Source of the DNA: Phoronis ovalis
Lineage: Eukaryota > Phoronida > Phoronidae
Length of the DNA: 24,965 bases
Direction: 5' to 3'
Assembly (NCBI GenBank): GCA_028565635.1
Contig: JAOXYB010061167.1
Location: 1-24,965 of the forward strand
Shown piece after piece: positions 4,219 to 22,376 of the stretch. The notes beneath the pieces were generated by a model. That model made no database searches. It saw nothing but the letters and a program-made list of their open reading frames with translations, and had not been told where the DNA came from. Made by a program: the position numbers and the translations under genes. Numbering within the stretch: the first letter of the stretch is position 1; each line of letters begins with the position of its first letter.

Positions 4219-4313
4219 ATGCAAGCTGAGGTTGGAGATTTGAAGGTTATTCGCAGGATGCGAAATCGTAATCTTAACAACAGAACAAGAAGACATACAT
4301 TAGCAAATGTCCG
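4219..4313 (+). CDS. PDE4: PDE4-type alternative first coding exon, PDE4D5/PDE4B3-like
   Basis: This probable first coding exon would give the isoform-specific N-terminus of a cAMP-specific 3',5'-cyclic phosphodiesterase 4. It encodes 31 full codons plus two bases (CG) and ends at a CCG|GTAAGT donor. The C-terminal part reads VIRRM, then RRHTLANV. From memory, mammalian PDE4D5/PDE4B3 N-termini end with LLRRM or a similar segment followed by RRFTVAHTC; the spacing from RRM to the end is the same and RR-T-A is shared. The CG left at the end would make Arg if the next exon starts with C or any other base. I chose the start at 4219 because it is the only in-frame ATG upstream of the conserved part: the frame is closed by TGA at 4099, and A is at position -3. 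In mammals this kind of N-terminus is considerably longer and binds RACK1 and beta-arrestin; whether the short form here does so is unknown. RRHT also fits a basophilic (PKA-like) site. The 5' end of the exon is not defined. Confidence 0.68.
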
Positions 4314-4319
4314 GTAAGT
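4314..4319 (+). promoter_or_regulatory. Splice donor of first PDE4-type exon
   Basis: GTAAGT directly follows CCG, giving a near-perfect U1 match. Without splicing the reading frame runs into TAA at 4315-4317, inside the donor itself. The phase (two bases before the intron) is the same as at the donors at 18493 and 22377. Confidence 0.75.
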
Positions 4320-4808
4320 CTTACGCATTTGTCTTCGATATATAATTGAGGATGTATCAATCATTATAAGAATTTCTTTTTAACAAACTGTGTAGTGAAG
4401 ATTATCTTTAACAACCAAAGAATGTAGTTTTTTGAATATCTGTTAAAAATCAGTATTATTTCATACACAATTTATATTTCTGACATATAAAATTTTGAGT
4501 TGTTTAAAGGTGTTTTATGGCACTGTTCTTAGCGGATACATTTATGAAATGTTAAAATTCACAAAAAATTCATGTCTATAAAATATGGCAAACGTAGCTT
4601 AAATAAATGAGCGTTTAGTTGTTATTGTCAGTGGTGTTTCTAATATAATCAATTAAAGGTTTCTTTCAGTGTTTTTTCACCTTGCTACTAAAAGAGCAAA
4701 ATAACTTTCTTGATGACTGGTTTTAAAGTGTTTTCATCGTTACAAATTGAGTAATGAGCCTGGCAGTCCTAAAAACTAAATGCAAAATACGTAGTTGAAA
4801 CGTTTTTT

Positions 4809-4816
4809 TGACGTCA
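4809..4816. promoter_or_regulatory. Consensus cAMP response element (TGACGTCA)
   Basis: This is a perfect 8-bp CRE palindrome about 500 bases downstream of the first PDE4-type exon, within its intron. CREB/ATF bZIP dimers bind this sequence. By established knowledge, mammalian PDE4 short-form promoters are cAMP-inducible through intronic elements, so the position is plausible for feedback control. No core promoter was recognised next to it, and a single 8-mer can occur by chance. Confidence 0.45.
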
Positions 4817-6026
4817 TTATTTTGTCTACTTAAGTCTTCCATGCAAGTCTCCTGTATTCGGAGCTAAGAATGTCACTTGTTTTTAAATTAGTAATACAAA
4901 TGGTGTCTCAAACCTACCGATCCCCTCCCATATGTTGCCCTACAAACTTGGCAGTTTAGACACCATCTCCAAAAGACTATTGACATTTTTATTAATTACC
5001 CTTTTCTAAATATGTAAACCCTGATTCCTATGGGAATGTTGCATCAGTAACCAACAGATATTTCAATTCATGTTACTTGGATATCTTCACAAATTTGCAG
5101 TGAAAGGCAAAAAAAACTGAATGCAAATTTATGATTAGGTAGGGTTAATCTGCATTTGTGGGAGAAATTATTTTTTATTGAATTATATAGGCCCTGAGTT
5201 TTTTTAGATATATGGCATAAATTATTTAAACTGTTAATGGACATTTAATTTGAATTTTTATGTGGGATCAGGTTATGTACCTGTATAGCTGTACATTCCT
5301 CTTTTTTGATTGAAATTAAACTAACTACAGTTTTGTTTTACCTGAGCCTCTGCACCCAAGAATCAGGAAGATTGATTTGTTATTTATTGTAAAAGCTTTC
5401 ATACATGTCATGTGCGCTGGTTTTTTCACAGGGGCTCTGATTTTAAGGTCAATAGACCTTTGTTAAAACTTCAATAACAAAACAAAATTCAACAGTGATG
5501 TCCTAATGATATGCAGAAAGCAAAATGCTTCCAGTTTCTTTTAATTTAAATATTTGCCCTCTAATTTGTTGATCACCTGATCAATATCCAGGGGTTGCTT
5601 CTACCACCTTCATTCATTGCTTTGTCAGTTACAAATAGTTGCATTCTGAAAGAATCAAGTGATGACAACTTATTACTATTACCATTATCTTTTAATATAT
5701 TTATTATGGTTTAGGATTTTAAATTTGAAATACCTCTGCAAGAATATTGGTTTAGAGGACAGTGGGTAATAAAACTAAATACAGAAATGCACAACTCAGA
5801 TCAGACTATAATGACAGACTCTTGCAAACTTTTTCTTTATTAAATTTTGCATAAATATCATATGTAATGTACTAGAGGTTGCTTTTTTGCCTATATTCAC
5901 AGAAATTTTAATTTTGTTCTTAGTTTTACAAGTGTACTTTCAAAAGAATTAAAGTCTAACTTTGAGAAGGAAGTAAAGATATTTTTCCAAATTATGAAAC
6001 TTAAACTGCAAAAAGTAGAACTTATT

Positions 6027-6349
6027 CTACCAAACTACCACATCTATGCAAGATGATCAATGCCCGGATTTCTAATGCAGATTTCACTTTGAATGACGAA
6101 CTTTGTTTACAATTTAATTGGAACTAAAACTTAAATTACTGCACCACCAAACATTCTGTGTGTATACTAGCCATGCCAGTATTAGTTATTGTACCAACCT
6201 ACCACATCATCTCTGCAAGATGAATGCCCAGATTTCTAATGCAGGTTTCACTTTGAATGACGAACTTTGTTTACAATTTAATTGGAACTAAAACTTAAAT
6301 TACCGTACCACCAAACATTCTCTGTGTGTATACTAGCCCTGCGGCCAGT
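6027..6349. repeat. Tandem duplication, two units of about 155 bp
   Basis: Two adjacent copies (6027-6180 and 6191-6349; offset about 164) share a start (CTACCACATC), a core (TTTCACTTTGAATGACGAAC) and an end (GTGTGTATACTAGCC). They differ by a few substitutions and small indels, such as AGATGATCAATG against AGATGAATG and an extra CT before GTGTGTATAC. They carry no open frame of note. This looks like a fairly recent local segmental duplication in an intron. A retained function, such as a duplicated enhancer, cannot be judged from this sequence alone. Confidence 0.9.
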
Positions 6350-7651
6350 GGTAACTGAAATATTGTTTACTTAATATTTTTAAAAAATGCACTGTAATTT
6401 TTTAAATTAAATGCAAATTACTTTGTTTAGTAATATATGTATATTAAAAGATAACTGAAATATTCTTTATGGAAATTAAACAGTTCATAAGTTTTTATTT
6501 AACAGAAATTAATTTAGTTAATTTTAATATTGGGAATTCAAGTGGATAATCCTATATTTATTATTTCAATCCATAAACTGATGTCGTAAATTAATATTAA
6601 ACCCTATAAGAATAACTGATGCATAATAAAAAGTATATCTGAGTTGTTTTTTTACGTTGACCCTGAGTTATACTGGAGTCGTTGATGTATAATTGTAAAA
6701 ACAACTCACCATGCAGTTTCGCTAATTGAATAAAACCAGCAAGTTCGTCACATTCTAAAAAGTGGAAAACCCGCTAATATAATAAATCTAAACAGCATGT
6801 TGACAACTAGCCGTTTTTAGTAATATTTGCAAGTTGTGTTGTAGAGTTATCAACTTGCTGTCATTTTTATTAAATTATATTTGAGTACATCTCACTTTTC
6901 TCTAATACTAAGCAATCATGTAGAAATGGTAGATATTTGTTGTATTTCTGTTGGTTGTTGATCACTATAGAAAACGAGCTGTCTGCTTGTGAGCAGAATT
7001 TTGTGCTCGTATCACTTTTCTTTATGGACTTTATCTTACAGTGCTGAATAGTTAACGACTGTCTTCTTATGAACGTTACTTAAGCTCAAAAAATGATTAC
7101 AATTTCAGTTTTTTAATTAATTTCTATGGTTACTTAGCACCTGCGCCATTAATCATGCATATGCTAAATACTGTAAAAAAAGCTTTTTATTGCAATTTAT
7201 GGCAATTATATAGATTTAAAATTGTTTTTGTTACCTGTTTAGTTTAGTAAGAGAGATGATACTGCTTGTATGTACTTCTTTACGTCTTTGGCAAGTAATT
7301 ATTGCTCAGATACTCAAGATCAGTCTTTAGATAATCCATCTAATGCAGCATTTCGTATGTCCTACACATATTAAATCCTTCTTCAGAATAATATGTTTGT
7401 GGTCAAAGTCATTCATTGTTCTCTAATCATGTTACACTGTTTCTTCTTTTTTAACTGTTAATTCAAATGGCACCTATGTATAGTTTCTACACAGACTGTA
7501 CATACCTGTCTTTTTAGTGGGAGATTCTGTAATTCAGTTCAGACAACATTCTACTAAAAGCAAAGGTAGAAAAGAAAGTGCAAAGCTAGTGTCTTCTGAT
7601 CTCAGGTACTTTTTCAAAAACTTGTCAGTTATCATTAATTTGAAATTGTTA

Positions 7652-7719
7652 TTTATATTCACTACATAGTGTTATGTTATGTTATTTATATTTATATTCA
7701 CTACATAGTGTTATGTTAT
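7652..7719. repeat. 39-bp tandem duplication
   Basis: The 29-base string beginning TTTATATTCACTACATAGTG and ending GTTATGTTAT occurs exactly at 7652-7680 and again at 7691-7719. The period is 39, with GTTATTTATA as linker. The copies are identical, so the duplication is recent. It lies in an intron and has no coding content. Confidence 0.9.
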
Positions 7720-8480
7720 TTACTAACATTTTGGCCTGTCAATTAGCATTGCTAGTAAACCATCAAATTTTGAAATAAAATAAATTCAAAACAAGTATAC
7801 TAAAACAGTACTGTATTACCAAAAGATTTAAATGATCTAAGGTAAAAATGAACTGAATCTATTACATTGGTACATTTAAGTTTACTTTTTGATAATGAAT
7901 ATAAATTCTTAATATCAACACCAGTACAAAGCTAGAAAAGAAATAAAAAATATATTTAAAATTGAAAAATTGTTGGTTTTCTTAAAAGGAATAAAATGAA
8001 TCATTATAACTCAAGGAATTTGTGGCAGAATTAGTTACTGATTATGTCCTGTAATATTTGAAAATCCAAGTAAAATTGTTGCTGCTATGTGTGAAATTTA
8101 TTGTTCACTTTGTTCTCATTGTTTTTGTGTTGTAACTTAGAAGTTTTGAGATATCTACAATGGTTGCACGAAATATATACATGGTCATAAATGATTTAGC
8201 TCCTCATGAATATATTCATTTAGTTGTATTAAATTTCACACTTGTTTTTAAATATAATCAACCAGTTGGAACAAAAACTAAGGCTTACAACCAGTGTTTC
8301 TGATGTCATCATTCTACTTTTATCTTTGCTAGCGACACCTATTGGTTGTTGGATATGATAACAAAATTACTCAATTATATTCAAGTCTTGTTAAACCTAT
8401 AGTATCATGATGCAAGTGTTCACTAAAACGTGTACCAAGATCAATGTCAAATTTTGCAGTGGCAGTTTTATGGGGAGAGG

Positions 8481-8508
8481 TTGGAGGGTTCAATTGAACC
8501 CCCTCCAA
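8481..8508. repeat. Near-perfect palindrome
   Basis: TTGGAGGGTTCAATTG leads directly into its own complement, ending CCCCCTCCAA, with one extra C. It can form a stem of about 13 base pairs with almost no loop. Its G+C-rich ends stand out from the AT-rich surroundings, so it may be a remnant of a foldback element. Confidence 0.6.
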
Positions 8509-8881
8509 CAATGAAAATTGTTGAAAAAATTATAAACAAAAATCAAAAATAACAAAATATGCTACATTTTCATAAAAATCATACCCTAACCTAAAATCCT
8601 GGAAGTGTCCCTGTTTCATGAATTCTTTTAACAAGGTACTGTATATTTTAGCCTAGGATCACCTAATATTGTTGCTGTGTAGTCCATATGTTAAAATTTA
8701 TATAGGTTAATATGTATTAGGTGATCAAACATAAAAAGGTTTTCCCTAGTAAGTAAGAATTGTATCTCATTCATTTTATTAGACTTTGTTAGATTACCAG
8801 GTACAGGTTCAATGATCACTCTTCAGCCTGAGTATGAGGATGAAAGACCTGTGGTAGCCTACGAGGGTGCACCTTACAAGT

Positions 8882-8889
8882 GGATGCCT
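8882..8889. repeat. Left target-site duplication of MITE copy 1
   Basis: GGATGCCT lies directly left of the element. Its partner TGATGCCT is at 9226-9233, a match of 7 of 8 bases. Confidence 0.65.
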
Positions 8890-9225
8890 CCGGGGGGCAG
8901 TCAATATGAAAGTGGGTACCCATGTTCCAACATGGTTTTTCAAAAAGGCCCCTAACGAAGTGAAATTCTGCAAAAAATACACCCCTAAGGAAGTGAGTTT
9001 TCTGAAAAAATACACCCTAAGGAAGTGAGTTTTGGAAAAAAAACACCCCTAATGAAGTGTCACATCTCCAAAAAACACCCCTTTTCGTGATTTTAGCAAA
9101 AAAAAAACAGACCCTTAACGTGTAACGCGCGTTATGCACCGGCGGTTCGAAAAACATACCCTTTCACGCGAAATTTTGTTGGAACATGCGTACCCGCTTT
9201 CATATTGACTGCCCCCCACCCCGGG
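8890..9225. mobile_element. MITE copy 1 (non-autonomous DNA transposon), 336 bp
   Basis: The terminal inverted repeats are about 40 bp. The left end reads GGGGGGCAGTCAATATGAAA, then GTGGGTACCCATGTTCCAACA; the right end is its complement with two or three differences. The termini are rich in G and C (CCGGGG / CCCCGGG). An 8-bp flanking duplication suggests a hAT, P, Merlin or Sola1-like cut-and-paste origin; the superfamily is not settled. The inside is made of six tandem units of 31-34 bp, each led by CCCCTAA or a variant (about 8949, 8982, 9015, 9046, 9078, 9112), then GAAGTG and an A run. There is no transposase frame. The minus-strand frame at 8809-9015 is only a translation of these units (repeated TSLG) and is not a gene. 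The copy at 13776 is the same element in the opposite orientation. Confidence 0.88.
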
Positions 9226-9233
9226 TGATGCCT
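9226..9233. repeat. Right target-site duplication of MITE copy 1
   Basis: TGATGCCT directly follows the element and pairs with GGATGCCT at 8882-8889. Confidence 0.65.
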
Positions 9234-12200
9234 CACAGTCTTGTAAAACCTATTATTTATTATGTTGTTTACTTAATAGCACAGATTTCTGTTTGATGGC
9301 AGTGACATCTTGTGCTGTAAGAAATTATTCAACAACAACCCTTCTATGTAATATTGATTCTTTCAGTAGTTAATATTTTGTCCACTAGATGTCTAGTGTG
9401 CATACGTATTAACTGGTAGGTTAATGTAAAGCAATTTCCTAGTAAAAAGTTTTAATTCGTGCAGAACGCTGAACAAAAATATAAAAATGGTTATAATTAC
9501 TTGAATAGTATCTAATTGTGAAGATGGTTAATTAATACTTTAAAATAGAATTTAAAAGTGCAGTCAACAGCACAATACCATAAATAATAATTTTACTAGA
9601 CATGGGATATATACATACATGAGTATGTAATTTAACTTCTGTAAATTTGTATTGCATGCACCACTTTTTGTGTATGGGGGCGTGACCCGTTCGGGACAAG
9701 TTATTCACACTTTACACTTTGATTCGAATTTTGGGCACGTCAAGGGTGGTTTAATGATAAAATAAACTAATAAAGGTATACATTTTGGAAAGGTATTAAC
9801 TTAACAATTATGAAAAATTCTTTTCTTATCAGATGATTATGCAATCAGTAGGGTGCCTTTTTGGTCAAAACTCATGTTTTTCAAAACGTGAACTTCAAAA
9901 AAATATAACTCCAACACCCCAGCAGATACTAAGCTAAAATTTGGCTGAAATTAACTTCTAACTAAGAACTCTAATATTTGTTTCAGATATTTGTAATTTT
10001 ATTAGTTCTGAAATGATGTGCTTGTAAAAATATGGGTGTCAGAAAAAAAAGAAACATTTCTGGCAGTTGCATTTTAGAAAGTCATCACTTTTGAATGATA
10101 CAAAATTTTAAGTGACTCATAGTATATGAATTTCGGGGAAAGTATTAAAATGCATGAATTTGCATTACATAAAAGTAATGTATCTGTGCTTGTCAAAGCC
10201 AAGATGGTATCCTAACTTTGAAGTTTGGGGCTTTTTGTTAATGCAAAAAAGGGAGCAATTTTCTGATCCTCCCCGAAACATGTTTCTGAAGTCAGTCTTC
10301 GTAAGTGGAGGTTGCTATAACTGTCTGCCTATAATATCTGAATATCATTAATTTCTTGGAAGATTCGAGAATATGTGATCAGCATTTGTTAGCCATTGAT
10401 TGATTTACATTTAGTTAATATTCTGCATACAAGACATGTAGTGCCATTAATGTTTTAGTTTTACAATATGTTCTTAATAAATAAATAATTTGATATTAAG
10501 AATATATAGTAACAACAATTTACTGCTTGATATCTACATGAAAAGATAATTAAGTCATATTTACTTTTCTCTGTATCTTTTGTTACTTGTAATAACTAAT
10601 CGAAAATTGATGTATCTTACTTTTAAAATTCTTGCACACATTATTATAGCAAGTAGTAAGCTAACCATCAATCTTACAGCTTCAATATCCTTACTGATCA
10701 CTTGATTTAACCCAATAGGAATCTAATACTAAGTTCAAAATAATATTAGCAAGTTTGTTTTATTATACTGAACCATGTAATTTGTTCTTCTGTCATGCCA
10801 AAAAAAGATTATATTAGATATGTTCTTATATGTGTTAATGCAAGAAAAGGGCCACAGCCTGTGAACTACATTATTGAAATGTTAAATTTCTAGGGAGAAA
10901 GGATAATTATGCAAAATCAGAAAACTGTTTAAAAGTTACACATTTTGAAACCTTACTACATTGTACTTTTCCTGTTTTCAATATGTTTCCTTTTTTGAAA
11001 GTAATGATTTTATAATTGGAATCTTAAATTTTAAAGTTGTTTTATATTTGCAAAATTGCTAGTTACGTCGTTCTTATTTTGCTATAAAAAAACAGATCAT
11101 TGTGTCAAAATCTAAGATTTCTAAAAGATTTCAAAATTTGTTATGTGCATATTGCAAAATGATCAAAATGCAATAAAATTTTATCAATATGTAGTCAATA
11201 TTCCCAAGCTGCCAAAAAATGCAACAATTATCTTACCAGCAAGCCCCCATACTGGGATCGAGCAGTTATGTTATTGGTTTATAAAACCGTTTAAACCCAT
11301 CAAACTCAAATGTTAATAACTAAATGAGTTTTTAAATATAATTTGTCACATAGTTTTTTTGGGATTTAATGTGTATTTGTTTGAGATTAGACTATGCAAA
11401 TAATTAGTATCATAATGTCTTACGACCTGCTTCCTTGCAGGAATCTGGAACTGCCTCTGTTTCACTGAGAACACTTTGAATGAGGCTTTAAAAGCATTTT
11501 TGTTCTTGCCGATTTGTCTAGGCTTGATTGCATAAAAAGAAAGTAGCTAATGCATCTAATCTTGTGTATGGTAAAAAGGAATTTGCATACTTTTTATGAA
11601 TATATTTTTCAGAGAAATGAGCTTAGCTTTGAAGCTTTAATTTAATTTAGTGTGTACACTGCTAATCACCAGTCATCCTGCTGTGCACAGGCTTTCACTG
11701 GAAATTCAGCCAAGATATTATGAATAAGGATTGTACATACATATAGGAAATGTAGTACCTTTTAAGTATGTAAAAGCATGTGTTGAAAGTTTAATATCTT
11801 GTTTTAAATGATGGAATTGATTTTTCTCAGAAAGACAATGTTATTGCTATCACTTAATGGCCAGGCAACCATGAACCTATATTATGTGTAAAAGAATGCA
11901 GGAAATTACTTCTGAAGCATAATGAAAGTTTAATGAGAGTCCTCTTGCTCATAGTCGATTTTCAAATAAGATATTCATTTATTTTAAAACGTGGGGGGCA
12001 AAAGTAAAAATCAAATATATTTACACCTGATGTAAATATATTTTGAAATTGATATTATTTACGATAGAAAATTTAGCATAAGGGAGTTGTTGGTAAGAAA
12101 TCCCCTAAAATGCTTAGTGTTTAAAATGTATCGGATGGTTTTAATTTTTTAAATCATGTTTTTAGTATTTGTGATGTTTAGATGATGTCATTTTTGTAAT

Positions 12201-13767
12201 GTATGATGTTATTTCCATTTACAGATATTAGTTAGAAATGCCTGGGTACTTTAATACATCAAATTGATACAGTGAAAATGAAATTTGTTTTTTAATTATT
12301 GCTACATGTTTTTTTATTAAATGTTGTGTGCTAAAATTGCATGTTTAAACAAAGCATACTTGCCTTTTATTCTCCTTGTTCATTTAACATTACGATATAT
12401 GAATTTTCCATGTATTTACTAACTCCCTGTAGAGAGTCGATTCCATTAGGGAAATACAAATTCATCTTCCACAAGACTTACTCCATTCTCAAAATAAAAC
12501 CCATGTTGGATTGAAAAATCGGATTTATCAAGTTTTAAAATTGATTTGGCAAATCTCTATTCACACAGGAAAAAGTCAAACTCAATTAATCTAAACTAGT
12601 TAAAGTTTAACACAACTGTACCATGTGCAATATATTTCATGATTAAGTTGATGGTTTTCTGCACACAATAACTTTCAAACTGGTTTACCATTTATTTAAG
12701 TTATATCAAAAATAAGTTTGTTTGGCATCACCCAACCGGCCCAAAAAAATTACTCGAAAACTTTTTATTCCATAAATTCTGCCATATTTTATTAGTGATA
12801 AAAATTTCAGTTACGTTCACAGGAATCTTACAGTGAAAACTAAGTGAAGTAAAACTCATTGTGCTGCCTGGAAATAGATGCAAGTGTATGGGTACCAACA
12901 GAAATGCTTATATAGCTCGTATTAACAGAGTACATGCATTTATACATTTTAATTTTTTTTTAAATCTGCCTTCCTGCTGACCAAATATGATAGGACTCTG
13001 TTAGGCTATGGTAAACAAACAACAGATTTAATATATATGCTTATTCTGAAAGCGGTGAAACTTTTAAAAGGCAACACTTCAAAAAAAAATTCATAACACA
13101 GCACTATCTTGACATTTATTTAGACATTTTTTGTTCAAAATAACGAGGGAAGAAGTAGTTTTAAAAATAACTACATCCAGTTAACTTATATGCATAAATT
13201 TAATTCTGCTGCATGAATGGTCAGATAATAATGTTTAGTGTGTAGTTTCAATATTAAAAGTATTTTTTGTTTGTTGATGGATTTTCTATTAGTTTTTATA
13301 TTAGATATTAATGTAGATTTATTAGTGCTTTACCATTACTTTGTGTGTGGTATTACAATTGAAATAGTCTCCTGCAGACTATGAATTTGTATCTTGAGGG
13401 GCTCTCCATGCAACTTCCACTGTCTAAAATTGTTCCTGTTACAATTCAAAGTTGAGTTCTGCCACTAGTTGTGTAGTCCACTAGGAATTTCACAGTGCCA
13501 TGTAAAACTTTTAAAATTGTCTATGCTATTTCTTTGTTGTTGTTTTTAATATGCCTGCAGTAATGGATTCATTGTTGCAGTGTTGTTAAGTGTCTATGAT
13601 ATTTGTCGACTGACATTTATATTGCATATTAGTTTTAAATATGAGTATCTTTCAAGCTTTGGATTGCAGTTTCTGTATGAAATAAAACACTGAACTAAGA
13701 AATTCAATCATTTCACTTTAGCATTCTATGATGACACCAAAATACTTAGTTATTTCGGATTTAGGTG
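9234..13767. other. Intron sequence, no gene
   Basis: This is AT-rich DNA with no supported exon. A slightly more G+C-rich patch around 9670-9745 (GGGGGCGTGACCCG) could be an old repeat fragment, but I cannot define its ends. The plus-strand frame at 10154-10351 shows no family motif, and the GTAAGT inside it at 10310 is in a different phase from the PDE4-type donors. A good-looking acceptor (CTTCCTTGCAG at about 11441-11451) is not followed by a usable exon with a donor. Confidence 0.55.
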
Positions 13768-13775
13768 CTGTGGGG
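13768..13775. repeat. Left target-site duplication of MITE copy 2
   Basis: CTGTGGGG lies directly left of the element and is repeated exactly at 14071-14078. The match can be stretched to GCTGTGGGGC on both sides, so the duplication is 8-10 bp. Confidence 0.8.
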
Positions 13776-14070
13776 CCCGGGGGACAGTCAATTTGAAAGT
13801 GGGTACGCATGTTCCAACAAAATTTTGTGTGAAAAGATATGTTTTTGAACCGCTGGCGTGTAACACACGTTTCGCGCTTAAGGTCTGTTTTTTGGCTAAA
13901 ATCACGAAAAGGGTGGTTTTTTGGAGGTGTGACACTTCGTTAGGTGTGTTTTTTCCCAAAAGTTCACTTCCTTAGGGTTGTATTTTTTGCAGAATGTCAC
14001 TTTGTTAGGGGCTTTTTTGAAAAGCCATGTTGGTACATGACCCACTTTCATATTGACTGCCTCCCCTGGG
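13776..14070. mobile_element. MITE copy 2, same family as 8890-9225, inverted, 295 bp
   Basis: This copy starts CCCGGGGGACAGTCAA and ends TTGACTGCCTCCCCTGGG, with long inverted repeats (GAAAGTGGGTACGCATGTTCC and its partner). It is flanked by an exact CTGTGGGG duplication. Compared with the copy at 8890 it runs in the opposite direction. It holds five internal units of 30-33 bp, marked by TTAGGG-like strings at about 13878, 13908, 13940, 13972 and 14005, against six units in the other copy. It has no transposase. Several overlapping open frames (13750-13959 minus, 13793-13975 and 13944-14183 plus) are by-products of this repeat. The exact flanking duplication confirms the element's ends. Confidence 0.9.
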
Positions 14071-14078
14071 CTGTGGGG
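14071..14078. repeat. Right target-site duplication of MITE copy 2
   Basis: CTGTGGGG is an exact repeat of 13768-13775. Confidence 0.8.
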
Positions 14079-14487
14079 CTACTAGAGGATATAGTGAGAT
14101 TAAACGATGTTTCCTTGTTAAAATCCAAAAGGAGCTTACATGAGTTCATGCAATTCATCAAAGTTTGTGGATCAGCCAGTTGACATTTCCTGCAGTTTAT
14201 AGAGTCTAACTTACCACTTCCAAAATAGCAATCAAAGAGCATTGACATCAAAACACATGAAATAAAGTTGTCTTTTAGCATTTTTAGTAATAAATTATGT
14301 TTCATCAATTTATACTAATAGAAGGGGTTTAAATATATTTGATGTATAAACCACATATTTAGTGCAACATCAGGAAATCTTAACATCAATCTAATAGATG
14401 ATTGTTCTTTCAGTTTTCTTCAATTTTTATACAGTTGTAGACAAAAAGTATACAGTGTCCAGCTGAATAGTCTTTTGACGTACTTCA
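14079..14487. other. Intron sequence between two MITEs
   Basis: I see no gene. A minus-strand frame (14048-14308) happens to cross a GTAAGT at about 14211-14216. It starts inside the MITE, shows no motif, and has no partner exon that I can see. Confidence 0.5.
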
Positions 14488-14494
14488 GGTACTC
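14488..14494. repeat. Left flanking duplication of second MITE family
   Basis: GGTACTC lies left of the element and is repeated at 14822-14828. Confidence 0.55.
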
Positions 14495-14821
14495 CATACC
14501 TGTCAAGTTGCAAGAATATTTGGGAGGGAGATTTTTTATAAATTTTGATCACGGACTAATAACAGCAGCCCCAAGGCAGCTGGCGCATGGCCTTTTGTTG
14601 CGTTTGAGGCATGAATGCAGGAGGGGATCATCCTCTCCTGCCGGGGTGTTTCTACTATAATCTGAGAAATCATGACAATTATATGTTGACTAACCTTTGC
14701 CAGAGCTTAGCTCGAAAATGTGAAATTTTAGGCTCATGACCGTGAAGTTTTTGTGGGAGGGAGATGTTGCTCCAAAACACGAGACTCACACTCAAATAGG
14801 GAGACTTGACAGGTATGAGGT
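14495..14821. mobile_element. Second MITE family, about 327 bp, hAT-like
   Basis: A perfect 14-bp inverted repeat bounds the element: CATACCTGTCAAGT at 14495-14508 and its complement at 14804-14817. GGTACTC flanks both sides (7 bp, or 8 with one mismatch), which fits hAT-type insertion. A string GGGAGGGAGAT occurs near each end in the same direction. The middle is richer in G+C than the surroundings (about 14560-14650). There is no transposase. Short frames inside it (14475-14660 plus, 14679-14945 minus) are chance. It is unrelated in sequence to the MITE at 8890 and 13776. Confidence 0.75.
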
Positions 14822-14828
14822 GGTACTC
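14822..14828. repeat. Right flanking duplication of second MITE family
   Basis: GGTACTC matches 14488-14494. Four bases (AGGT) lie between it and the end of the perfect inverted repeat. Confidence 0.5.
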
Positions 14829-16652
14829 TGTAATAATCATATTCAAGATTAATACTTTCCAGCAAATTGTACCAATATACACACTCCAACATATTAAAAA
14901 ATAAAGAGCCACGGCATATTGGAGTCTCATGAATATTCTATACAAGTCAATGTAATATGGCAGACCACCAAAAAAATGACATCAAATGGTTTCTTATTTA
15001 CATCTGAATAGAAACTTATTATGTACTCGTGTCTATAGACGTAACTGGATATTGCATAAAATACAATATATTATGGTGAAAGCTATATACATATTTATAA
15101 AATATTAATGCATCTCCAACCATTATTGATACTTCTCAATTTCAGATGTGTCTGGCTGGTACATTTTGTTTTCCATGTATTTCATAAAAACATGTAATTG
15201 TTGAAAGGTTTTGTTTCTTAACTGATGAGTCAAAGTTTCTTTGTAATTTTAAATAGTTACTATAGTGACTTTTGATCTTATGACATTTCCTTTTGAAAAT
15301 AACAAATCAATCAAAAATCAGAATTTCACATTCCTACACAAATATTTAAAAGTTCAATTTCAAATTTCTTTAATTTGAAATTAAAATTGACTTGAGCCTC
15401 TTTAAGAAATAATATATTTCTTTTCAAAATATGTAATTGTATGTTTAATGTAAGGGTGTCCAGGTGCGTTATGCTGTGTACATTCAACCTATGTTTTAGC
15501 AGTTAAAATGAAGAGACAAACATGTAAATGTCACTTATTTAAAAAGGTAATACTGTAATCGTCACAAATCTCTGCATGGGGTCAAATATAGTTTGAAATG
15601 ATCACGTGATCCGATAAGTCATTTGGGTAAAAAATATGTCAAAATTTAAATTTCAAAACATGCAAGTCAAAAATCACTCCACTTACAAATTTAGAACTTT
15701 TCACAAATTAACTTTACATATACTGTCTTCATTTTTGTTAAGACATTATGAATGTTAGAAATGAAAAGATCAGCACAAAGTCAGTAAAATGGTAACTTCT
15801 AAACTTTGAAAATTCACAACTTTTAAACTAATCAAAGCAACCTTAATTAGTATTAGTAAACCTGAGAAAGCTTTTGCAGATCAATATCCAGGATCTGTAT
15901 TGTATATAAAGATGATTTGTGAAAACTTTCGACTTTGTAAGATGGGGTGGTTTTGATTTGTATTTTTTTTAAATTAAAATTTGAAAGGTATTTTTTTCAA
16001 AATGGCCAATCATGAGAATTTAAGTCCTTTTTGTTTTGGATCTATAATCTTTCTACAGTGCATACTTTTACATGCCTATCTATTTATTTTTGATTACGAA
16101 AAATAGAGAATAATTTATACTCAAATATACTGACAATGTATCTTGAATCCTTAAAAGTAACTCATTGATATATCATTTCTTTATGATATTTCAAATGTGC
16201 TAAATTCTTACCTTGGTGATATTTATATTTTAAAGCCACCATGTTCTATCTAGCTATAGGCAATAAAATTAACCTTAATATAGTTATTTTTAGCATTTTT
16301 ATCTCTTAACTCAAAAATGTCTCACATTTTTAATTACTGTACCTATTGATTATTGTGGTTCAGATATATGATGCACAGTAGAAAATTCAAGAATACTACA
16401 TAGACTTCTCGCATTGGATGATTCAATAATTGCAAAATAAATATTAATTGTCTTATTTCGAAATTTTAGAAATTCTAATATAAAATTCATTATGTGCATA
16501 ACATATTTAATTAACTAACCGTAGCAACAGAAAAACTGGAAAAATGTTGTTTTAAGTATATTTGAAGAACTAATGGAAATATTAATTAATTATCAAATAC
16601 ATAGGACGTTCAATCAGGTGGCTGTGAGAAAACAAATATAATTACCTGCAGG

Positions 16653-16690
16653 TTGTCAGTGGGATAGTGTATGATAGCTATCACTGACAA
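16653..16690. repeat. Hairpin
   Basis: TTGTCAGTGGGATAG and its later complement CTATCACTGACAA can pair over 13 bases, with a two-base bulge and a loop of about 10 bases. It stands alone in AT-rich intron sequence, and no function is suggested. Confidence 0.5.
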
Positions 16691-17592
16691 TAGCTAATTA
16701 GAGTCATATTCTTAATATACATTGTGGTGGAGCAGTGGATTGAATTTTCATGTAAACGATTGAGAAATTAATCATACAGATATATAGATATGTATATGAC
16801 ACTTGTATGATTTGCATTTTTACTGTTCCTGTTAGAGAGATGCAGATGAGGTCGAGTCAGTTTTTGTTATTGTATCATGTTCATTACGTACTAGACTTCA
16901 AATTAAAAAAATTGTTCTGCAGCTGTTTGGTTTTAGCTTTAGATTTGCTTTGATTCCGACAATAAAAAGAAAATTAGCCAATTTGCTGATTGATTCGTGA
17001 TTGATGGCTTTACATTGTAACTCCGTAAGTTTTTGCATGGAATAACATCATCTGTTGAATCGGTGGATTAATTCCAGCAAAATTATGAAAGGCAAACTGA
17101 TTTTGCATTGAGGGGAAGTAAATGACATGACTGCTGTTTGATGTGAATTGCAGCACGAAGAGTATGTACCCATAGGGAATACTGGAGTTGATGCATCATA
17201 AATAAAACACGTTGAGACTGACAGAATGTGATTGTTTTTTTGCTAGATTTTAAGTAAAAGCAGAATTTTATTGTGATGTTTTTAATCTATGCTACATACT
17301 TTTTAAATAGAATATTTATGCATGCGTTATTTAGATTTGACACTGTAGATTAAAAATTACAAGTTGACTTTTAATTTTTCACTAGCATGCACCATAATTT
17401 ACAGCTTTATATACTGCTAGTGTAATATAAGACTTTCTATATTAATATTGTAACAAATTGATACAATATTAACATAAGCTGAACTATGCTGTTAAACATG
17501 TAGAAATTAAGGAAGCTAAAAGGTCTTTGATCCTTGAACAAAATTACTTTGAGCTGTAGAGGAATAGAACATATATAGTTGCTGATACTTAG

Positions 17593-17622
17593 TTAGAGAA
17601 AGGGAGCTTCTCTTTTCTCTAA
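17593..17622. repeat. Imperfect palindrome
   Basis: TTAGAGAAAGGGAG is followed directly by its near complement CTTCTCTTTTCTCTAA. It is about 800 bases upstream of the exon at 18389. It may be a purine/pyrimidine-rich regulatory patch or chance. Confidence 0.4.
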
Positions 17623-18331
17623 TACAGATTGCTGCCCGTGTGTTCACCACTGAACATATTTATTGCTGATAATGAAGTTGCCAGCATTTATAGCAGAAGT
17701 TGTTTTTTCTGTTCTTTGAGATAAGAACACCTGATATATGTAGAAAAAATAATGGGAATGACGATTATGACATATGCTGTACAAATCTCCACTTGTTGTG
17801 TCTGATAAAACAAAAGGCATCTACATCTGCTGCATTTGCTGTTTGTTCATTGTTGTAACTGGGTTGAGATACTTCAAAGAACAGGTCAGGGATATTTGTC
17901 CGATATTTCAAGTTAAAGAGGAGGCTTTTGTTACCTTGGGAACAGAATGAGTATAAAAAATAATAAAAAGGATAAACGGATGTGACTTAAAAGTAACTTT
18001 CTAAACATGTTTACTGGATTACAATTTTAATTTTTAAATTTGATAATACTGATTTTAAAAAATCAGTCATCTCACAGAATGCATGTCACACCATTAAGTC
18101 AGTGAAAGTAACTGTCATTGTTTGTGGATTAAAACATGCTTTTAAAGGATGCTTACACTTCTGTTATTGAATAGTGGTGTTTAATACAATAAACTACTAA
18201 TTGGTTTGGAAAATGTGAACTTTCTTGTGGTTTAATTACTTCCGTAAAATCAGTACATATACGGAGAAATACATATTGGGTGTAGTTATTCTACTGCATA
18301 GTATTGTAACTGAGAACAAACCCCATACTGT

Positions 18332-18339
18332 TATAAAAA
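18332..18339 (+). promoter_or_regulatory. Possible TATA box for the PDE4D3-like exon
   Basis: TATAAAAA lies 57 bases before the ATG at 18389. If used, transcription would begin near 18362 and leave a leader of only about 25 bases. Such strings are common in this AT-rich background, so this is a weak call. Confidence 0.22.
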
Positions 18340-18388
18340 TAGTTAATGGTTTGCTATATATCACATAACTGTGGAATTAGAGCAAAAA

Positions 18389-18492
18389 ATGGCTTCCAGT
18401 ACTACTACTACTCAGCCATCTATTGATAAACCAGGATTTGTTAATTTGAACATCCCAAACCAAGCAGGGAGGAGAAGACACTCTTGGATATG
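18389..18492 (+). CDS. PDE4: PDE4-type alternative first coding exon, PDE4D3-like
   Basis: This exon would give the N-terminus of a long-form cAMP phosphodiesterase 4. It has 34 full codons plus TG and ends at ATATG|GTAAGC. It opens with a Ser/Thr-rich stretch (MASSTTTTQPS) and ends GRRRHSWI. Joined to an exon starting with C or T, the last codon becomes Cys and the end reads RRHSWIC. From memory this is exactly the end of mammalian PDE4D3 before FDVDNG of UCR1. In PDE4D3 the Ser of RRHS is a PKA site, and the segment takes part in AKAP binding; both residues needed for PKA recognition (RR-x-S) are kept here. The start has a strong context (AAAATGG, A at -3 and G at +4). The exon is more than twice as long as the 16-residue mammalian version, with the extra residues at the front. 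This is the strongest identification in the window. Confidence 0.82.
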
Positions 18493-18498
18493 GTAAGC
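18493..18498 (+). promoter_or_regulatory. Splice donor of PDE4D3-like exon
   Basis: GTAAGC follows ATATG. Reading through without splicing gives TGG then TAA, a stop overlapping the donor, as at the other two PDE4-type exons. Confidence 0.8.
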
Positions 18499-21400
18499 AA
18501 GTTTTGCTCATATGTTGTGGTGGTCAGGCTTAAAAATAATGGTAAATCTAACATATCCCACTTTTTGTGTATGATGTGAAACGTATAATCCTGACAATTG
18601 TTTCACTACACAGTTAAATAATAATGTCTCCAGTTTCTGAGGTTCTATTAATTTTAGGAAACTACAGAAATCTGAAAAAGGAGATGTTTTACATGCGGGA
18701 CATTTTGTCAAACGACGATAGAAATTGAGTTAGAAGCAGCTGTATGATATTCTTATAAAAGTTGCTGCTTAGTATTATGAAATGCTGCAATGCATGAACA
18801 AAGCCGCGGGTTTATCACTTCATTGAATGTCAGATTCTTTAAATAAGGCACATTGTATCTTGTAAAATTATTAGAATATTAAACAGAGGGAATGTTCTAA
18901 AACATTTCAAAGGCCTTGTGTTGCTTTCATGATAATAATGAATTACCAGTAATTTGATGAATTAACATTTATAAAAAAATAAGATTTTACGATAGAAAGT
19001 GTTTGCTATACCCTCGGGGTATATTTTATTTTAAAATGCTTGCTGGACTCATATTTAAATCCTGGCTACATTCCTGCTCTAAACATCCATTGATATAATA
19101 AAATACTGTTCTCTGCTGGTAAACTGCATGGAACTCTAAGGTGGTAATTGCCTGGATAATTTGAACACTAATTATGCTAACTTGAAGAGGCAACAAAAGA
19201 TTTTTGTGGCTGTTCATCTTGCTGGCAATCGACTGCTTACATCACTTCAACATAGAATGCATTTAAACTTTATAAAACTTGTGGTAACAACACCACTTAT
19301 ATTTATGGCTTTGCTTGTAGTTACGTTAAAATTCAGTGCACATAAACTTTTGTATATTCTGCTGCAATTAGTATTCTGCGATTTAACATCACAACTACTT
19401 TTTCAAGGTATCTGATTTATGTGCGATAAATAATTACTAACAAAATTTTATTCAGTTTCACATAGAAACATGTTCTTCATAATTCATGTGTTAATAAGAT
19501 AAAATAACCAATGACTGTATCATTCTGTTTTATAAGGACTAATTAATAGTAAAATAACTATTATGGTATATCTCCTTTATAATAACATTCAATATGTACC
19601 TAGATATGTGTTAATTATAAATCTAACACATACATAAAATACCCATTTCGAAAAAAGGTTTAACAGGCGGTAAATGTATTTTATTGGCAAGGGTTAATTA
19701 ACAGTTGAAAACAATACCACAATGTTCAGTTAATGAAAATTGAAAGGTGCATATTAATATATAAAATTCATTAACTTAGTTCTATGCATACTGCATGCCA
19801 AAGTATACATGTAAAACTGCTAACGATAAGCGTAGGCTAAAATAGGTGAAGGAAATACCTCTATCTTCAATAAACATATTAACACAGTATTTATTTATAA
19901 TTAACATTTCTTGTGTATGCTGACAAAATATTTAGTTGTACGTTCTCCATCAAATAAATAGTCTACTAACGCAAATTAACAGTCTCGAAGGTAGCACTGC
20001 AACAATCCAAATATTACTGCATAAAATCATTTTCTCCCAAAAATGAACAATTGTTTCTGTTGTCACATGTGCACTTAAGCTGCAAACACTTAATTTAAAT
20101 TCATAAATTTTTATTAAATGTTTGATGAATATTTAGGTAAATTTTACACACCAGGACAGATAAACCCCAGTTCTATCCTACGGACATATTACGGTTTCTT
20201 TTAACTGGTACTACAGACATCTGTTGGTATACATTAGATGAATGAATCATTTATGTTTATCTAAGGAATTCCGTCAGCCAGGTAGCAACTAGATGTAATT
20301 AGTAACACTGATTTGATATTGGAAATCTATATACCGTAAAATCTTTTTTTTTTTACCCTGCAATTAATAATATAATTAAAACAAAACTCGCATATTTTTT
20401 TTGATATCTTCTTGTAATGTATCATATGTGCATGTCAGATATGTGTTGTTTTTCATAATACTTAGCAAGCTTGGAACACCATGGCTGAAAGTAGGATGGG
20501 GTAAAATTCTATAAAGTATGAATTTAGAGAATTTTCAGTATTTTGGCTGCTCTTCCAGGTTCCTAACATGTTGCGAATGAACAACACAAATGTTAAGAAT
20601 CAAAGTTAGCAAAATCATGTTATTAGGAACTTGGCTGCCTCTTGGTTTGTTCTGCTCATCAGTATTTCTTCTTTATGTGTATTTTACACGGATTGCTTGC
20701 TTTACATGTTAAAAACCTTAGGATTTCAAAAATAGACTATTTGGAAGTAAACTAGGAAAGTGGAATAATTACGCAATGTTATATTAATTTTGACACTTTT
20801 AGCTCAGTTTATTGTAATATCAAAAATTATTGTATTGTCTATGCTAATTAAAGTATTTGACCACTTGACAATGCAACTGAGTTGGCTAAAATTGTGTTTT
20901 AATATTGCAAGGTATTGAAGTATCAAAAAGTATTATAGAGAGTCTGCTGCATATTAAATCTGATGTTATGGTTATAAAGTGCTGTGCTATTTGGAATAAC
21001 ATGAGAGAACAGCTGGATATGATATTGTGGTGATCATGTACAAGCCTTCTCCAGTCTTATCAGTCCTGATGCATGCAGAGTTCTTCAATCAGTGGAGAGA
21101 TGCTGTATGGCTGATGATTCTACGAAAAAGATAGTTTTATTGTAATTTATAGATTCTGAAGTGAACTTTTAAACGGACATAACGCCCTTAAGATCAAAAC
21201 ATGTAATCCTGATGTATTGAGATTGGCTTACAGAATTTAAACTTATATAATACTGACACAGGTGAATATTTACTTCAGCATAAGCTTTGTTTTATAGTTA
21301 GATGCGTTAAATTCATCTTAAAACAGTTTTAATAGTAAAGTAATCAGTTGAAAAGGTACTGAATACAGAAGGAGACAGACCTAAATTATGACAATTTCCC

Positions 21401-21522
21401 CAAACACGTTTTTTTTGGCTAGTTTCAAAATGAACATTTTTAATGGAGCATAGATAATTTGAAAATTTGAACAGGTTCTAAAATTGCTTATGTCTGGAAT
21501 GCTGATTAAAAGGTTCTGGGGC

Positions 21523-21530
21523 TGACGTCA
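21523..21530. promoter_or_regulatory. Consensus cAMP response element (TGACGTCA)
   Basis: This is a perfect CRE about 690 bases upstream of the ATG at 22222. It is the second full palindrome in the window, and a variant follows 226 bases later. CREB binding here would link the third alternative promoter to cAMP. No reporter or binding data can be inferred from sequence. Confidence 0.48.
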
Positions 21531-21748
21531 GATATCTGCTGGAAGTACCAATCATGTGGTAATAAGATATTTGAAATTTTGATGAAAAATGGCAATTGTC
21601 TAGCCAAACAAATGTGAATATACAGGACTTATGACATCATCAGTCTTCAGCATGATCAATAATTAATTAGTATACCTGGAATTATTTCAAATATCATTGT
21701 TATTATATTTATATATTGTGAAATCATTTAATATACGTACTGATATTG

Positions 21749-21756
21749 TGACGTTA
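21749..21756 (+). promoter_or_regulatory. CRE-like site (TGACGTTA)
   Basis: This site has one mismatch to the palindrome and keeps the TGACG half-site. It is about 470 bases before the ATG at 22222. It is a weak call on its own, and its weight comes from the nearby full CRE. Confidence 0.3.
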
Positions 21757-22221
21757 TTATAAGAGATTGATCACATTTAATGTTACCTTTGGAATACCAA
21801 CTCCACTGGTGGTCAACGGATTACTGCAGATTGTGCTTTATAACGGTTTTTATTAAACTGTTTGTTTGTAACATTTAACTTACGGTGCCTATATAGATAA
21901 AACAAATTATTTAGAAGTCTCTTTCTGACTGGTGCTAACTGGAATTCCATCAATCCGAGTGGTCTTCTGAGACCGTTAGCTGACATTAAAACATTATTTT
22001 TTCTAAAGGAAAAAATAACATGCTGTAAATTAAGTTACTGGTAATATGTTACAATTTTGAAGAACTCTTTCTAAATGATTGATTAATATGCGGGCAATTG
22101 CTCTTAAATGTAAAGCAAAATATGGCACTGTATTGGATTGTTTAGCTGCCTTCTAAGTTTATTCATACTTACATATCCAGCTTTAATTATACCTGTGAGG
22201 TACTCTATTAAAATTTTCTCA

Positions 22222-22376
22222 ATGAAGAAAATTAAACGCTGGTTAAAGTCGCAAAGTTCTCAAGAGAGTTTTGATGAAACATCTCACACTGGATTATTAC
22301 CAACTATTCGTGTAACAGCACCAGTTTCTGGCTCTGGTTGTATTCCATGTAGCTCCAGGCAAAAACCACCTAACGG
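22222..22376 (+). CDS. PDE4: Probable PDE4-type alternative coding exon, third N-terminus
   Basis: The frame has 51 codons plus GG and ends at AACGG|GTAAGT, in the same phase as the exons at 4219 and 18389. The product starts MKKIKRWLKS, then a Ser/Gln/Glu-rich stretch (QSSQESFDETS), then LLPTIRVTAPVS and a Cys/Ser/Pro-rich end with two close Cys (CIPC). LLPTIRVTAPVS is weakly like the LPSIAIT / LPLIAIT segment that precedes UCR1 in PDE4B1 and PDE4D7, and MKK is also how PDE4B1 begins. The final split codon would be Gly, as in PDE4D7. The ATG context is weak (T at -3). The frame is open back to TAA at 22111 with no other ATG, so the exon could instead be internal, for example from an acceptor near 22180 (TATCCAG). 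The shared phase and strand are the main reason for grouping it with PDE4; the sequence likeness alone would not suffice. Confidence 0.52.

Follow-up and report, generated by a model that had tools for sequence, protein, structure and literature searches.

The stretch analysed here (the window) comprises 24,965 bases and is the entire contig C3776 of the Phoronis ovalis assembly, which holds 77.4 Mb in 4,805 contigs. It very probably represents the 5' part of a lophotrochozoan PDE4 (dunce) gene with at least two, perhaps three, alternative long-form first exons. Three short exons on the plus strand, termed A, B and C, each start with ATG and end in phase 2 at a G/GTAAG donor (the slash marks the exon end). 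The assignment of the window to PDE4 draws on several points. Exons A and B find matches among the PDE4 N-termini of other animals, which reach up to the same UCR1 junction, the exons share their phase and their donors, and a single PDE4 body, with a lophotrochozoan grouping, was detected elsewhere in the assembly, on contig C514.

Exons A and B and their relatives in other animals

In an initial annotation of this DNA, three short same-strand frames with a common phase and donor had been noticed, with the ends RRHSWI-TG, RRHTLANV-CG and GG. Both the frames and their ends are present (Table 1). The peptides with their junctions read MQAEVGDLKVIRRMRNRNLNNRTRRHTLANV-CG/GTAAGT for exon A, MASSTTTTQPSIDKPGFVNLNIPNQAGRRRHSWI-TG/GTAAGC for exon B and MKKIKRWLKSQSSQESFDETSHTGLLPTIRVTAPVSGSGCIPCSSRQKPPN-GG/GTAAGT for exon C. 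The split codon had been expected to encode Cys, Arg or Gly. This is correct for exons A and C, where the leftover CG and GG fix Arg and Gly, respectively, whereas the leftover TG of exon B yields Cys only when the next exon opens with T or C.

Such frames are rare by chance. On the plus strand of the window, four stretches of at least 90 nucleotides run from an ATG to a phase-2 GTAAG, where 100 second-order Markov sequences averaged 0.44 and never exceeded 2. The fourth stretch (7155-7246) looks like noise, as its guanine-cytosine (GC) content is only 0.217 and its codon-position score is matched or beaten by 90% of 349 other open stretches. A degenerate codon pattern for RRHSWI-TG/GTRAG has a single match in the complete assembly, which is exon B, while the reversed control gave 0. 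The corresponding pattern for RRHTLANV-CG/GTRAG matches once in the window, at exon A, and in 0 of 100 shuffles.

Table 1. Exons and predicted phosphorylation motifs on contig C3776
Feature	Position	Strand	Description
Exon A	4219-4313	+	95 nt, phase 2, ends CG (Arg); supported as PDE4 long-form first exon, PDE4D5-like / dunce RRHTLANVR type
Exon B	18389-18492	+	104 nt, phase 2, ends TG; supported as PDE4 long-form first exon, PDE4D3 type
Exon C	22222-22376	+	155 nt, phase 2, ends GG (Gly); candidate exon, first or internal, with unproven PDE4 membership
RRHT codons in exon A	4288..4299	+	PKA consensus by sequence; codon-pattern match from 4288
RRHS codons in exon B	18473..18484	+	PKA consensus by sequence; codon-pattern match from 18473

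Two protein searches (the best 120 listed of 3,670 and of 3,953 matches) gave 239 distinct proteins, 219 of which possess a recognisable FDV-NG junction. As had been suggested, the peptides of exons A and B find their counterparts among the invertebrate PDE4 and dunce proteins, namely in the N-termini of insects and molluscs. Compared with the N-terminal parts of the 219 junction-bearing proteins, exon A reached a score of 81 with Mercenaria (MEAERGDIGDLKMMHLAAVRNRCRRHTLANVR) and 77-78 with two beetles (MQAEQGSIG...RRHTLANVR), where 30 shuffled queries did not exceed 43. Exon B scored 55, with a shuffle maximum of 42. In tblastn, exon A matched the Mercenaria protein P0124 with 37 bits (expectation value, E, 3.9e-7); a single random sequence with matched dinucleotide composition reached 25.4 bits at best.

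The two types can be recognised by their ends. Exon A carries RRxT(L/V)A nine residues ahead of the junction, the mark of the PDE4D5/B3 type, and exon B carries RRHSWI directly before the split codon, the mark of the PDE4D3 type. Directly before the junction, an A-type end occurs in 50 and a B-type end, RRHS(W/F)(I/V), in 61 of the 239 retrieved proteins, counts that are inflated by queries bearing such ends and are not frequencies. RRHTLANVR itself is present in insects, including Drosophila virilis and Musca, and in further proteins such as P0121 and P0137. Variants are RRYTLANIS in amphioxus, RRFTVAHTC in vertebrate proteins labelled PDE4B or 4D and RRFTVAQTC in a 4C-like protein of hagfish; in Mercenaria, the A-type end is followed by a few extra residues before FDVENG. 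The B-type end is found in vertebrate 4D proteins (RRHSWIC) and in 4B-like and 4C-like ones (goldfish 4B-like RRHSWVC, frog 4C-like RRHSFIC, sawshark 4C-like RRHSWIC). In insects it reads RRHSWIGG (whitefly), RRHSWICG (wasp) or RRHSWICS (weevil), and it is shared by two further proteins, one of them from the mussel clade (P0139).

The likeness is not uniform along the exons. In the insect dunce isoform (P0150 of Tribolium, P0174 of D. virilis), the MQAE start and the RRHTLANVR end are identical to exon A, but the middle differs and is two residues shorter. The vertebrate PDE4D5/B3-type N-terminus (RRFTVAHTC) has RRxTxA at the same nine residues before the junction and is far longer than exon A. 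An RRM upstream of the end had been taken as a further PDE4D5 feature of this exon. It does stand at the PDE4D5 spacing; however, against four vertebrate sequences the likeness has shuffle p-values of 0.03, 0.09, 0.22 and 0.27 and is not significant. Likewise, the PDE4D3-type N-terminus (e.g. P0009, MMHVNNFPFRRHSWIC/FDVDNG) ends in RRHSWI like exon B, as do vertebrate proteins labelled 4B and 4C, whereas the vertebrate upstream part is unlike that of exon B (MASSTTTTQPSIDKPGFVNLNIPNQAG). Taken together, these comparisons support the assignment of exons A and B as putative PDE4 long-form first exons, PDE4D5-like and of the PDE4D3 type, respectively.

The 75 junction-bearing proteins of the second search that lack both ends show 39 distinct other ends; A and B are therefore two among many. 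A comparison of 192 N-terminal peptides with the window and with C514 up to 29 kb revealed no further first exon: besides A, B and C, nothing attained the best score of a single random sequence. In the Protein Data Bank (E up to 10), exon A had no match and exon B only APOBEC3G (E 0.2), an evident chance match. The amphioxus PDE4 ends (Branchiostoma P0169, P0185 and P0220) include, next to RRYTLANIS, an RRHTMHC, perhaps a D3-type variant. A PDE4 record of amphioxus is labelled isoform X34, and alternative starts may thus be numerous in this animal.

The PDE4 body and its probable link to the window

In the assembly, PDE4-specific UCR exons were found only on contig C514, where the catalytic exons follow them. 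A Lingula PDE4 query matched 24 places in the assembly, 11 of them on C514 and the other 13 being weaker relatives on other contigs. The first body exon on C514 (HAEDLIVTPFAQILASL..., near 6400) is equivalent to the final portion of UCR1. On another contig, C4544:7932-8705 encodes a PDE catalytic domain within an uninterrupted frame of 815 residues, unlike the intron-split PDE4 of C514; it may be a member of another PDE family or a retrocopy.

The C514 protein was placed in a PDE4 tree of 45 rows, consisting of this protein and 44 of 51 chosen ones; the vertebrate 4C and amphioxus rows were dropped by the cut-point pattern applied, and the tree has no 4A row. The protein falls in a set of 23 rows with molluscs, nemerteans, a brachiopod and an annelid (support 91/96). 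The six vertebrate rows, of 4B and 4D, group together (100/100) to the exclusion of the C514 protein. In the tree alignment, its highest identity is to Lingula (83%), and in blastp to P0122 (79%), followed by Lingula (78%).

The same tree holds a pair of proteins that connects the two N-terminal types. P0121, with an A end, and P0139, with a B end, are sisters (98/82) beside Mytilus and continue into nearly the same UCR1. For this reason, A-type and B-type exons are seen to be joined to one kind of UCR1 in lophotrochozoans, as judged from two sequences of possibly two species. P0121 and P0139 are 661 and 646 residues long, and their contigs measure only 2,745 and 2,456 bases. As these contigs are too short for intron-rich PDE4 genes, they are probably complementary DNA.

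Three observations weigh against the assignment of the window to a lophotrochozoan PDE4 gene. Neither the window nor the first 29 kb of C514 nor the assembly as a whole yielded the start of UCR1 (FDVENG...RRESFLYRSDSD), so that the acceptor and FDV-NG exon predicted downstream of the three exons did not turn up, and the link between C3776 and C514 is a putative one. These searches employed a typed consensus, ungapped scoring (window and first 29 kb of C514) and the Lingula PDE4 protein, with the assembly covered by two protein queries. Furthermore, exon B on its own gives 23.9 bits in tblastn, which is below the best value of the random sequence; its identity is based on the RRHSWI that is identical at the exact exon end, rather than on the tblastn score. 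Finally, the support of 91 for the lophotrochozoan fork lies just below the star threshold of 95, and no starred set of at most half of the rows holds the window species.

The missing UCR1 start, together with the lack of any PDE4 body exon on C3776, would also fit a detached or decayed PDE4 fragment that is not a working 5' end. This explanation is very unlikely. In exons A and B, the frames, starts, phase and donors are all intact. In addition, a second copy of the PDE4 UCR was not detected in the assembly, nor was a long-form first exon in the 6.4 kb ahead of the first C514 body exon. The simplest reading is an assembly gap between C3776 and C514, with the window as the 5' part of the gene on C514.

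Exon C and other features of the contig

The initial annotation had described a cluster of three PDE4 first exons. For A and B, with their significant PDE4 relatives, this description holds, but the membership of exon C, which has no significant relative, is unproven. A search with exon C at E up to 10 found none. Its best likeness is to an ant PDE4 N-terminus (TMRVTLPLTSFRRHSGCVSMLSRVKP, P0231), which weakly resembles TIRVTAPVSGSGCIPCSSRQKP of exon C. The score of 51 exceeds the shuffle maximum of 46, but the 23.9 bits in tblastn fall short of the 25.4 bits of the random sequence, and the likeness is not significant. Moreover, the codon-position score of exon C is equalled or beaten by 11% of the 349 other open stretches. 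It could well be, although we lean the other way, that only A and B belong to PDE4 and that exon C is part of something else or a frame left open by chance. Against this, exon C agrees with A and B in phase and donor, and a stretch of at least 150 nucleotides like it is expected only 0.07 times on its strand and phase (second-order Markov model). Its GC content of 0.406, compared to 0.307 for the window, lies at the 95th percentile. Exon C thus looks moderately coding-like, and on balance it is rather likely to be a PDE4 exon. The reading frame upstream of it is open for more than 100 bases, and for this reason it may also be an internal exon.

Two more specific resemblances were considered. 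The PDE4B1/D7 type is, in our own reading of P0111, marked by an LPxxxPxIAIT-like stretch just before the junction. Exon C contains LLPTIRVT about 20 residues upstream of the junction, and this check gave no significant match in the 219 junction-bearing proteins. The MKKIKRWLKSQS of exon C resembles the cyprinid KKRKRWFKSRS (score 42). This candidate was rejected, as the score is under the shuffle maximum of 46 and the cyprinid peptide abuts the junction, whereas that of exon C opens the exon.

Apart from the exons, the contig carries two copies, in opposite orientation, of an element like a miniature inverted-repeat transposable element (8892-9217 and 13779-14065), with terminal inverted repeats that are 95% and 88% complementary. 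The element is abundant: an assembly search with the first copy listed 40 scored places of 632 first-look candidates, the others being 88-92% identical. Two similar adjoining stretches of about 130 bases can be seen by eye at about 6030-6160 and 6190-6340. Scans of the window for tRNA genes and Rfam families gave no match. Elsewhere in the assembly, COX1 lies on contig C1114 and contains 6 TGA.

Age and possible function of the two N-terminal types

The A and B types most likely predate the vertebrate PDE4A-D duplications, as both are found in insect PDE4 and in vertebrate proteins labelled 4B, 4C and 4D. Most likely, the last common ancestor of protostomes and deuterostomes already possessed both. 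That at least two N-terminal types are older than these duplications had been proposed at the outset, and the distribution of the ends, together with the position of the C514 PDE4 outside the vertebrate 4B/4D clade, bears this out. With such an age, PDE4 isoforms of insects and molluscs would be suitable for modelling the PDE4D3 and PDE4D5 tags, and RRH(S/T) would be an ancestral feature open to testing.

Alternatively, the RRHTLANVR and RRFTVAHTC ends, or the RRHSWI ends, might have arisen independently in protostomes and vertebrates, with a basic PKA-like site before UCR1 being favoured. The motif RRx(S/T) is indeed frequent among the other ends: 12 of the 39 distinct ones contain it, compared to a shuffle mean of 5.2 and none of 500 shuffles reaching 12, although the 39 include mutually related ends. 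Upstream of RRxT, moreover, exon A is not significantly like the vertebrate type. Even so, independent origins are improbable. Insects, the mussel-clade protein, exon B and vertebrates have an identical RRHSWI, over all six residues, in the same position. For the A type, RRxT lies at a distance of nine residues from the junction in protostomes and vertebrates alike, and the amphioxus RRYTLANIS provides an intermediate. A common, ancient origin of each type is thus preferred.

In Johnson et al. 2010 (PMC2929239), Ciona is the sole invertebrate and most long-form N-termini are placed in tetrapods and mammals. The D3 and D5/B3 types described here contradict this dating as given there, and for D3 it is already contradicted by fish 4D proteins, which carry RRHSWIC. 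Among the top results of a literature search, which mostly did not extend to subscription journals, there was no paper on D3- or D5-type PDE4 N-termini in invertebrates or stating an older origin, and a search on the letters RRHSWI likewise returned none. The alternative N-termini of PDE4 are known already, and public database entries exist for the insect isoforms; what is new are the further members and the correction of the dating.

In this reading, the choice of the start site would decide which short N-terminal tag one PDE4 enzyme carries ahead of UCR1. The first exons would have separate promoters, and a phase-2 splice would connect each of them to the UCR1 exon that they share. The RRH(S/T) of exons A and B, a PKA consensus just before UCR1, may be phosphorylated in Phoronis ovalis and may contribute to targeting. 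Mammalian tags of this kind tie PDE4 to various partners, and some of them contain PKA sites. In PDE4D3, the N-terminal PKA site is presumably the Ser of RRHS. According to PMC4346272, the mammalian PDE4 N-terminus acts as an anchor that sets where in the cell cyclic AMP is destroyed. PKA phosphorylation in the PDE4D3 N-terminus raises the affinity for mAKAP and leaves the activity unchanged, and for PDE4D7 another N-terminal PKA site is known (PMC4346272).

A further proposal, prompted solely by the shared RRH(S/T), is speculative and rather unlikely: the D5-like and D3-like first exons would be ancient tandem duplicates of one ancestral exon, which placed an RRH(S/T) PKA site directly before UCR1. 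The bilaterian ancestor would then have chosen between two PKA-switchable tags by start site, and vertebrates would have inherited this layout. If true, PDE4D5/B3 and dunce would contain, in the threonine of the A type, a PKA site so far overlooked.

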